In this document: positions 29,857 through 32,903 of the stretch, one piece after another
How positions within the stretch are numbered: the first letter of the stretch is position 1
Layout of the letters: each line of letters starts with the position of its first letter
Origin: Carboxylicivirga marina
GTDB lineage: Bacteria; Bacteroidota; Bacteroidia; Bacteroidales; Marinilabiliaceae
Assembly (NCBI RefSeq): GCF_016612505.1
Contig: NZ_JAENRR010000007.1
Coordinates: 62,001 to 126,000 of the forward strand
Reading direction: 5' to 3'
DNA: 64,000 nucleotides
Translations under genes and position numbers: made by a program
Notes under the pieces: generated by a model
What the model was told of the DNA's origin: nothing
What the model saw: only the letters and a program-made list of their open reading frames with translations
The model's database searches: none

Positions 29857-31053
29857 TTAGTAATTTAGAGACTTTCCGGTAATGCTCATGAAGATATCTA
29901 AACTTCGTAACTCATTTTTTATATTAAGCAAATCTGCCAGTTTAATAAAGCCAATTTTATAACTGTACTCCTGCCCTTTGTATTCTTCGGTAATTGACTG
30001 GAAATTAAACTTGTTCAAAACTGAATCATCAGAATACCTTAGGTATAATTCTACCTGATGTTCTTTTGAGTAGTTAAAATCATTGGCGTAGTTCATTTTT
30101 TTATACTCGTAGGCATAATTGTGTGCCAATGCAGTAATGTCTGATAATACCGCAGAACCTGTTGGATGTGCCCCGGCACCTTTTCCAAACATAAACTGCT
30201 TATCGTAGGCTTTTCCTTTTATAACAACACCATTGAATTCATCTTCAACACTATAAATGTATTTATCTTTGCGCACAAAGCGCGGAAGAACAAATAAAGT
30301 AATGTTGTTGCCTTCCAGACGCTCCACCTGGCCAACGAGCTTTATTTTGTAGCGCTTTTCACGCGCATACTGAATATCAAAATCAGATATATTTGAAATA
30401 CCATAGGTCAAAACATCTTCAGGATCGATAACTGAACCAAAGCTGTGTACGGTTAAGATAATGAGCTTGTATAGTGCGTCAAAGCCTTCTACATCAAATG
30501 TAGGATCACTCTCGGCAAAGCCTAAATCCTGAGCATCTTTTAAGGCAGAATCGTAAGATTGGTTGTGGTCAAATATCTTAGAAAGAATGTAGTTAGATGA
30601 ACCATTTAAAATACCTGTAACAGAAAGCAGAAGGTCATTATCGTAGTATTCTTCGAGGTTACGAATCACGGGTATGCTTCCACAGGCTGATGCTTCATAT
30701 AAAAGCGAAACCTTGTTTTCTTTCTGCAACTGAATCATTTCAGCCATGTTTTCGGCCAACATTTTTTTATTGGCTGATACCACATGCTTCCCTTTTTTAA
30801 GGGCTTTTTTTACAATGTGATAGGCTTCGTCAGCATTATCAATCAGTTCAACAACTGTATTGATATTCGGATCGTCTAAAATATCATCAGGATTATAACA
30901 AAAATATTGATCTGGGAGTGAACGACTTTTTTTGTTCTTAACACATATTTTTGATATTTCGGAATCGAATGCCGGACTGGTTTTTAATACTTCGTAAAGC
31001 CCCTGCCCTACTACACCAAAGCCAAACAGGCCGATGTTGAGTTTTTGCTTCAT
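29857..31053 (-). CDS. hom: Homoserine dehydrogenase
   Basis: The 398-residue protein has the NAD(P)-binding start IGLFGFGVVGQGLYEVL and the catalytic homoserine dehydrogenase motifs: ASACGSIPVIRNLEEYY, GILNGSSNYILSKI and FAESDPTFDVEGFDA. The C-terminus is a variant domain and no clear ACT domain is visible. It reduces aspartate semialdehyde to homoserine, precursor of methionine and threonine. It follows the O-acetylhomoserine sulfhydrylase gene by 118 bases and probably shares its transcript, so both would be under the leader control described upstream. Confidence 0.95.
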   Translation of the reverse strand: MKQKLNIGLFGFGVVGQGLYEVLKTSPAFDSEISKICVKNKKSRSLPDQYFCYNPDDILDDPNINTVVELIDNADEAYHIVKKALKKGKHVVSANKKMLAENMAEMIQLQKENKVSLLYEASACGSIPVIRNLEEYYDNDLLLSVTGILNGSSNYILSKIFDHNQSYDSALKDAQDLGFAESDPTFDVEGFDALYKLIILTVHSFGSVIDPEDVLTYGISNISDFDIQYAREKRYKIKLVGQVERLEGNNITLFVLPRFVRKDKYIYSVEDEFNGVVIKGKAYDKQFMFGKGAGAHPTGSAVLSDITALAHNYAYEYKKMNYANDFNYSKEHQVELYLRYSDDSVLNKFNFQSITEEYKGQEYSYKIGFIKLADLLNIKNELRSLDIFMSITGKSLNY

Positions 31054-31171
31054 GGTTTTTTGTTTCTACGAATTAAAGGAATTCGTTGTTGGTTTTTGTT
31101 TTGCTTCACAAATGTACAGTAAATTACAAACCATCCAATGTTTGAGTGCATCAGATGGTTTGTTGTCATAC

Positions 31172-32479
<1,308 letters not shown>

Positions 32480-32483
32480 TTAT

Positions 32484-32584
32484 GGTTAATGTTTTACTTT
32501 AACCTCTACCTGTGCTCAACGCACCGGTCTGTACTAAATATTTTTTTGATTATCAGATACGATGCGTTGTGACACTTAGCGCGT
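32484..32584 (-). promoter_or_regulatory. Putative attenuator / competing stem region
   Basis: Read on the minus strand, AACGCATCG (32568-32560) can pair over 9 bp, with one G-U, with CGGTGCGTT (32526-32518). The last two sense codons of the leader ORF (ACGCGC, 32584-32579) can pair with the same GTGCGT, so the two pairings exclude each other. Nearer the gene, GGTTAA (32504-32499) pairs with TTAACC (32489-32484) just before the start codon. There is no T-run after the main stem, so this is not a textbook intrinsic terminator. Rho-dependent or translational control is possible. The pairings were found by eye. Confidence 0.55.
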
Positions 32585-32677
32585 CATCATCATACACATC
32601 ATCATATGAGAAGCGTTCTTAAATACATTTGTTGTATTTAAGGCTGTAGAAGTAATATGAAATAATTGCTTTTTCAT
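32576..32677 (-). CDS. Methionine-rich leader peptide of the sulfhydrylase operon
   Basis: The 33-codon ORF starts at ATG 32677 (MKKQLFHITS...) and ends ...ASHMMMCMMMTR at TAA 32576. Six of the last nine codons are Met and one is Cys. It lies upstream and in the same direction as the O-acetylhomoserine sulfhydrylase gene. The ATG falls at the start of the predicted transcript (leaderless or nearly so). This matches the design of amino-acid-specific leader peptides, in which ribosome stalling at the run of regulated codons changes mRNA folding. An internal perfect 10-bp inverted repeat (32618-32627 with 32633-32642) adds a hairpin. No protein function is expected. Confidence 0.75.
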   Translation of the reverse strand: MKKQLFHITSTALNTTNVFKNASHMMMCMMMTR

Positions 32678-32683
32678 TGATTA

Positions 32684-32714
32684 CAAATAAAGAGAATTTA
32701 CTCTTAAATTCAAA
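32684..32714 (-). promoter_or_regulatory. Promoter of the Met leader / sulfhydrylase transcript
   Basis: On the minus strand, TTTG (32714-32711) is followed after 19 bases by TTTATTTG (32691-32684). This matches the Bacteroidota TTTG-N19-TAnnTTTG promoter with one mismatch. The predicted start is near 32677-32679, right at the leader ATG. Confidence 0.6.
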
Positions 32715-32903
32715 TAGATATTGAATAGTTTTTTAATTGATTTATAATAATTAGTAAATCAATGCGTTAAATTAGATGAGAGTGATAGGTGAAAAAAATA
32801 TGCGTATTAACGCAACCTTATTCCCGATGTTACGTCTTAATATTTGGAATCGGGAGTTGTATAGTTGTTAATTGCTAAAATATTTAGCTAAACCCAAATT
32901 GCT

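Follow-up and report, generated by a model that had tools for sequence, protein, structure and literature searches.

A methionine-codon leader peptide with alternative RNA stems upstream of O-acetylhomoserine sulfhydrylase in the Marinilabiliaceae: a probable attenuator

Leader-peptide attenuators are textbook regulatory devices for several amino acids. In the his, trp, leu, thr and ilv attenuators a short ORF carries codons for the product of the pathway, the pairings 1:2, 2:3 and 3:4 exclude one another, and the ribosome that finishes the leader covers arm 2. The element that we describe here is proposed to follow the same plan, but it would read methionine, would be nearly leaderless, is without a U-tract in the window and is found in the Bacteroidota. 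Leaders rich in the codons of a sulfur amino acid have been described elsewhere. The poly-Cys leader of actinobacteria is reportedly leaderless, to go by the title of the paper by Canestrari et al. of 2020. The Cys-rich leader peptides of actinobacterial cys operons resemble the present one in having sulfur amino-acid codons near the stop and no obvious terminator, as set out in the available text of PMC1262725, which reports that the methionine operons of that group showed no conserved RNA structure; they differ in belonging to another phylum and in reading Cys where ours has Met, and covarying alternative stems are found here. Similarly, the available text on uORFC-8-2 of the Rhodobacterales (PMC8632094) describes stems formed with the Cys codons of a short upstream ORF and proposes attenuation, but this ORF precedes cysS, the gene for Cys-tRNA synthetase, in alphaproteobacteria, and has a terminal U run. 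In other Bacteroidota the same gene of the same pathway has in the same position a SAM-I riboswitch (RF00162), where here there would be a codon-reading device instead. That a riboswitch or T-box and a leader peptide may replace each other at the same gene has been documented, according to the available part of PMC2965389. Signs of leader peptides in Bacteroidota are mentioned, with no methionine case, in the text available for two papers (PMC9723704, PMC7366714). The preliminary description of this locus knew of no methionine leader of the kind, and the literature that we searched likewise held none (supplements, such as Table S7 of PMC9723704, and subscription attenuator surveys were outside its scope). 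That search found little on leader peptides in Bacteroidota, and no paper joining SAM riboswitch, Bacteroidetes and leader peptide.

The window is the whole stretch of Carboxylicivirga marina DNA that was analyzed, 64 000 nucleotides in length, and the features of the locus within it are collected in Table 1. O-acetylhomoserine sulfhydrylase (OAHS) produces homocysteine, the direct precursor of methionine. The gene is assigned by the NCBIfam model TIGR01326 (OAH_OAS_sulfhy), scoring 682.8 bits, above the cut-off of 495.1. The ORF of 33 codons noted in the preliminary description is indeed present upstream of it, as is the promoter-like sequence TTTG-N19-TTTATTTG at 32714-32684. The 33-residue peptide has the C-terminal sequence MMMCMMMTR, with a single Cys codon in the Met run, and 108 nt lie between the leader stop codon and the ATG of OAHS (32467). 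In the alignment of the 14 members of the window's genus the -7 box is conserved as TTTATTTG in 13 and TTAATTTG in one, at a distance of 6-10 nt from the leader ATG; TTTG is found at -33 in 11 of the 14, the other three having only a T-run. Since TAnnTTTG is placed at -12 to -5 in Flavobacterium, in the available text of PMC9723704, transcription of the window's leader would start at about 32679, some 2 nt 5′ of the leader ATG, giving a nearly leaderless ORF. Between the promoter of the leader and a GH92 gene the minus strand also has a terminator-like inverted repeat, TGCGTTAATACGCA, with a T-run (window 32801-32814).

Table 1. Features of the leader and the adjoining genes in the window.
Feature	Position	Strand	Basis
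-33 element TTTG, Bacteroidota-type promoter	32711..32714	minus	read from sequence
-7 element TTTATTTG	32684..32691	minus	N19 spacer from TTTG; sequence and genus alignment
Leader peptide ORF, 33 codons, MKKQLFHITSTALNTTNVFKNASHMMMCMMMTR and TAA stop, ATG start	32576..32677	minus	
Hairpin P1, inside leader ORF, 10 bp, CUUAAAUACA/UGUAUUUAAG	32618..32642	minus	fold of the window's leader RNA
Met codon run ATGATGATG TGT ATGATGATG (arm 1)	32585..32605	minus	sequence and genus alignment; pairs with arm 2 in silico
Hairpin P2, spans leader stop codon, GACGC/GTGTC	32571..32585	minus	pairing in the genus
Arm 2, 5′ arm of stem 2:3	32560..32569	minus	alignment A1
Stem 2:3 (P3), proposed antiterminator (ON)	32517..32569	minus	RNAalifold, covariation, genus-only model
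Hairpin 3:4 (P4), CCGGTGC-GTTGA-GCACAGG, exclusive with stem 2:3, proposed OFF	32509..32527	minus	arm matching
O-acetylhomoserine sulfhydrylase (OAHS), proposed regulated gene	31172..32467	minus	TIGR01326
Homoserine dehydrogenase, next gene after OAHS	29857..31053	minus	NCBIfam

How general is the leader? All 14 genomes of the window's genus (its own included) have one OAHS gene, and in all 14 a short ORF ends 104-113 nt 5′ of it. The ends of these leaders read MMMCMMMT, TMMCMMMT or TMMYMMMT, and the N-terminus is variable. When the 14 are aligned the -7 box stands out as a conserved island, as do the Met run and the arms of the RNA, and the length change that occurs in the alignment preserves the reading frame. 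In the family Marinilabiliaceae OAHS was detected in 66 of 71 genomes (E up to 1e-120), and the upstream regions of the 14 genus loci and 56 further family loci were inspected. Met leaders are found in 23 of those 56, distributed over ten other genera (22 by scan, L113 by eye). One more, that of G042, was found by RNA model and reading; it ends SLCMRMMMTL, and is the 24th leader outside the genus and the representative of an eleventh genus. Scan matches unlike the leader in position or content were set aside (extra ones in L109 and L119, and those in L121, L143 and L150), and L003 (Thermophagus xiamenensis, Marinilabiliaceae), having the same 400 nt of upstream sequence as L102, was counted with it once. 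The alignment of orthologous upstream regions that was suggested in the preliminary description thus reveals Met-rich short ORFs with covarying stems in 14/14 members of the genus and at 24 loci of 11 other genera, and supports its reading of the ORF as a Met-codon leader.

The 14 genus sequences and 23 of the others form alignment A1, of 37 sequences (38 in total with G042). The reading frame is open in 37/37. The Met run takes different forms in different genera, such as GMMDMMCMMTK (L098), GMMWNMMMAQ (L100), GMMMGRMSMFMA (L103), GMMCRMMMMTF (L108), MMCRMMMTL (L120) and TMTMHRMYTFG (L112); since it is rearranged between genera, this is not a single conserved DNA motif. Met accounts for 203 of the 444 residues in the last twelve positions, compared with 8 of 804 elsewhere, and the N-terminal part of the leader has a modest codon-position bias (265/239/404). 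The start codon, as picked by script, is ATG in 28 of the 37 and either GTG or TTG in the other nine, which all belong to genus g18 (L108, L110, L116, L117, L120, L124, L131, L134 and L136). A box matching TAnnTTTG with a score of at least 5/6 lies 5′ of every one of the 37 leaders, a permissive count that was made without a null.

The leader and its structure are not due to chance. When the 400 nt upstream in the window were shuffled 300 times with dinucleotides preserved, none of the shuffles gave six Met within ten residues. In the same test on 11 genera, each represented by one sequence, the observed Met density was reached in 0/300 shuffles for nine of them, and in 10/300 and 9/300 for the weakest two, L113 and L112, respectively. 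The 178-nt leader RNA of the window has a folding energy of -49.1 kcal/mol (z = -4.46), which was matched in 0/200 shuffles. DNA resembling MMMxMMM, with one mismatch allowed, appears in six rows for the window's genome, corresponding to five places, and the four besides that of the window all lie within open frames of 289-554 codons. Separately, a 28-base sequence elsewhere in the window's genome (L002, 1501-1528), 3′ of a gene of the cystathionine gamma-synthase family, matches the 5′ region of OAHS at 93%. We rejected it as a second copy of the leader, none being seen there, and take it to be a shared A/T-rich stretch.

Two RNA models were constructed, R1 from the 37 sequences of A1 and R2 from the genus alone. 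R1 makes exactly one match in each of 38 of the 71 family genomes, and all 38 lie directly 5′ of OAHS; 37 are in the training set, and the match outside it is that in G042 (E = 1.4e-9). At E up to 0.05, R2 matches 15 of 57 sources, from eight other genera, the weakest having E values of 0.02-0.05. It recovers 15 of the 24 leader loci outside the genus and misses nine, together with L069 (discussed below). The remaining 33 of the 71 family genomes have no R1 match. Fifteen of these belong to genus g20, in which OAHS is only 50-54% identical or was not found, and some of those outside g20 have a close OAHS with no visible leader. Applied to 247 genomes sampled evenly across the order, R1 gives four matches, two in the family and none convincing outside it; the R1 matches L199 and L200 (E ~0.002) have no Met/Cys-rich leader ORF.

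The RNA downstream of the Met run has a well-defined set of pairings. Unaided, RNAalifold finds the core of the post-stop stem in A1 as 8 pairs. The full stem 2:3 comprises 14 pairs, and 82.8% of its 516 cells are paired, compared with at most 46.3% when the alignment is slid. In 42 cells both sides of the pair have changed, against 18.5 in shuffles, none of 500 of which was as high, and 28 in the best slide; the number of pairs with both-sided change is 6, which is not above shuffles. The stem AACGCATCG/CGGTGCGTT of the preliminary description is present as a part of this longer stem, at 32569-32517. In 37/37 sequences the stop codon is followed by arm 2 at a distance of 5-8 nt. Hairpin 3:4 scores at least 6 of 7 with its own arms in 30 of the 37, compared with 24% when the arms are swapped and 6.9% for shuffled sequence. 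The form of the arm varies by genus (CCGGTGC, CCGATGC, CCAATGC or ATAATGC), each having the matching partner. The Met codons are predicted to pair in turn with arm 2 (1:2), with a mean probability of 0.55 compared to 0.09 for shuffled codons, and the value is higher with the real codons in 34/37. ATG and CAT are complementary, so that a part of the 1:2 pairing is forced once both are present. The pairings of the downstream RNA are mutually exclusive and are kept by compensatory change, as attenuators of the his and trp type require. The earlier proposal of competing stems is thus borne out to the extent that alternatives exist, but the partners are different, arm 2 being able to pair with the Met codons and arm 3 with arm 4. 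The pair ACGCGC:GTGCGT on which it relied is found just in the window and in one other of the 14 genus members (L083, L086).

Further structure is found within the leader ORF and at its end. The interior of the ORF, folded against shuffles, has a mean z of -1.6 in A1, with z < -1 in 26 of the 37 sequences. In hairpin P2 all 70 cells are paired among the 14 genus members, and one pair is changed from CG to AU, on both sides, in five of them. No Rfam family matched between positions 30000 and 36000 of the window up to E = 1. Two known elements were considered for the window's leader and rejected on these searches: a SAM-I riboswitch, there being no RF00162 match up to that limit, and a T-box, there being no match to the Rfam T-box family.

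On this comparative and computational evidence we think it likely that the element is a ribosome-mediated attenuator that reads Met codons, in which the ORF would be translated, the leader would respond to methionine and a termination step would follow. The nearly leaderless ORF of 33 codons would be translated once transcription begins. When Met-tRNA is plentiful the ribosome would pass through the Met codons, reach the stop codon and cover arm 2. Hairpin 3:4 would then pair and shut off the expression of OAHS, most probably through premature termination of transcription. Under a shortage of Met-tRNA the ribosome would wait on the Met codons and disrupt the 1:2 pairing, and arm 2, thus freed, would pair with arm 3 in stem 2:3, allowing OAHS to be expressed.

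The ORF, the Met codons, the placement of the promoter, the covarying stems, their exclusivity and the geometry of the ribosome could all be shown here by comparison or computation. For the last of these the RNA was folded under constraint, with a ribosome footprint reaching 18 nt upstream and 12 nt downstream of the first base in the A-site codon, a size that was chosen from general knowledge, and pairing was called above 0.5. With the ribosome on the last Met codon stem 2:3 forms in 30/37 sequences and hairpin 3:4 in 5/37; on the first Met of the run the corresponding counts are 29/37 and 8/37. With the ribosome at the stop codon 2:3 forms in 0/37 and 3:4 in 35/37, and with no ribosome 2:3 forms in 11/37 and 3:4 in 25/37. 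Thus in the model a shortage of Met favours 2:3 and a plentiful supply favours 3:4, which would be the polarity of classical attenuation. One sequence, L118, does not fit the attenuator model, forming 3:4 in every state of the ribosome. The RNA of the window itself prefers 2:3 in the absence of a ribosome (0.92), so that it would be read through if the leader were untranslated, and this counts against an attenuator.

How might the switch control the gene? In agreement with the preliminary description no T-run follows the stem in the window. There is no U-tract 3′ of hairpin 3:4 there, and runs of four T lie within reach of 3:4 in 16 of the 37 sequences, compared with 10.9 in shuffles, which is no clear excess. 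An intrinsic terminator is therefore not demonstrated, and the effect of 3:4 is something that we infer; we favour premature transcription termination as the output, whether intrinsic or Rho-dependent. The lack of a U-tract in the window and of a clear T-run excess in the family would suit a version in which Met codons are sensed and the output is Rho-dependent termination or destabilization of the mRNA, with Rho admitted by 3:4 or by the RNA exposed behind the released ribosome; the poly-Cys leaders of Mycobacterium cys operons are also without conserved terminators, in the available text of PMC1262725. Yet the conservation of 3:4 with matched arms is not needed by a model based on a rut site, and the C content of the region is only slightly above that of G (0.176 vs 0.161). 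We therefore regard this version as possible but somewhat unlikely. Control might alternatively be translational, the leader structures opening or closing the ribosome binding site of OAHS, and the closeness of the leader to the gene and the lack of a terminator tract at the window's hairpin 3:4 would agree with that. However, the predicted accessibility of the OAHS start is equal across ribosome states (mean 0.516 vs 0.510), the shift exceeds 0.1 in just 7 of 36 sequences (L131 left out), and the 3:4 hairpin of the window ends 41 nt 5′ of the start codon. Sequestration of the ribosome binding site was rejected in view of this unchanged accessibility, and we consider translational attenuation improbable.

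Two other explanations concern what is sensed. The nearly fixed end of the leader in the genus, MMMCMMMT, could be that of a TnaC-like nascent chain which arrests the ribosome on sensing Met or SAM directly, instead of the supply of Met-tRNA being read by codon. Across the family, however, the positions of the Met residues and their neighbours are permuted (DMMCMMTK, WNMMMAQ, GRMSMFMA, CRMMMTL, RRMYMVM) and the N-terminal part varies, so that codon reading suits the data better than a specific arrest sequence; we hold direct sensing by the chain to be very unlikely, and a strict arrest peptide of the TnaC or SecM type was rejected, there being no conserved stall-site peptide across the family. 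It might also be supposed that the ORF is not translated at all, the ATG repeats being kept for their pairing with arm 2 in a structured RNA that senses something else. It is true that arm 2 pairs with the Met codons, that the two readings cannot be told apart through synonymous codons, Met having none, and that the nine leaders of genus g18 are without an ATG start. Against this stand the open frame in all 37 leaders with an ATG start in 28, the preservation of frame by the length change in the genus, the promoter-like box directly 5′ of the start of the ORF, and the lack of an Rfam match. Moreover, the comparable ORFs outside the family, which are mostly poly-Cys leaders, use both TGT and TGC, and since both Cys codons are in use the peptide can be separated from the RNA there. 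An untranslated sensor is thus scarcely to be expected, and we return to the attenuator that reads Met codons.

It had been suggested that the regulated transcript is shared with homoserine dehydrogenase, which adjoins OAHS in 27 of 30 loci. The gap of 118 nt between the two genes in the window (31054-31171) has a 15-bp hairpin (31163-31126) and a -7-like box, TACATTTG (31116-31109), and 12 of the 14 genus members have a TAnnTTTG box here, a count without a null for such AT-rich sequence. With the hairpin and box lying between the genes, a single transcript of OAHS and homoserine dehydrogenase is doubtful, and from the sequence of the gap homoserine dehydrogenase may have a promoter of its own.

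A different arrangement is found at OAHS outside the family. For comparison we took the best 80 of at least 591 OAHS loci from named genomes and scanned them all with Rfam, counting a SAM match only when it lay no more than 900 nt 5′ of OAHS; in L012, L047 and L064 it lies farther away, and these were scored as without. A SAM-I riboswitch is present 5′ of OAHS in 59 of these best 80 of at least 591 loci, and it is in this place that the leader stands in the window's family. A Met/Cys-rich ORF (at least 5 such residues in 10) is found in 39 of 79 loci of the same best 80, where 0.2 would be expected from shuffles, L017 having been left out of the test as it has 119 nt of upstream sequence only. 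Still among the best 80 of at least 591, such an ORF is found in 36 of the 59 loci that bear the riboswitch, compared with 3 of the 21 that do not (including the untestable L017), and in 36/36 the end of the run lies 3′ of the riboswitch and 5′ of the gene (for example L013:2617-2881; loci L007-L082). A sample of the phylum that is separate from the 80 has a Met/Cys ORF in 14 of 29 loci, and a sample of the order in 3 of 29, one of the three being a family member. Outside the family the leaders are mostly poly-Cys, such as MCMCCCCC (Pontibacter, L007), CCMCCCCCCC (Cyclobacteriaceae, L013) and CCCMCCCCMCC (L057), and the combination of riboswitch and poly-Cys ORF is a possible two-input leader. 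The role that the preliminary description allowed to Cys-tRNA is thus a minor one in the leader of the window, with its one codon, although poly-Cys leaders prevail outside the family.

Within the family no SAM riboswitch was found 5′ of OAHS in any of the 20 non-genus loci scanned, and the window and three further members of its genus have none there either. On a genome-wide scale SAM-I occurs as one copy each in 15 of the 71 family genomes, none of them at OAHS, and the one copy in the window's genome precedes aspartate kinase (L206:582-678, equivalent to G000:C122:6881-6977). In a Labilibaculum MAG of the Marinifilaceae, in the same order (L069:2419-2657), there follow consecutively a SAM riboswitch, a Met-run leader ending TTMMRMQRMMRMI and a post-stop stem. 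This looks like an intermediate between the riboswitch and Met-leader designs, where the likeness of its stem to stem 2:3 is our own reading of the fold. Leaders in which Met and Cys runs are mixed (MMQMCMMMCCCMRGTCEN) precede OAHS in L072 (a Kapaibacterium MAG), L162 and L168, and no SAM riboswitch was found in L072. R1 finds no match in the poly-Cys loci tried or in L069 (22 sources), and shared descent of the Met and Cys leaders is thus not shown by sequence. A history that we offer tentatively, thinking it plausible but rather short of probable, is that much of the Bacteroidota has a two-input OAHS leader, consisting of SAM-I and a Cys or Cys/Met peptide, and that in the window's family the riboswitch was lost, Cys codons became Met, and the attenuator, re-addressed in this way, took over the task of the riboswitch.

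The methionine leader also poses a puzzle, in that methionine is shared by the initiator and elongator tRNA, so that the leader must start with Met and yet stall on Met. If our reading is right, a codon-reading sensor of methionine would be added to those for other amino acids, one gene would offer a case of riboswitch and leader peptide trading roles, and the loci outside the family would indicate that riboswitch and leader peptide are a recurring arrangement.
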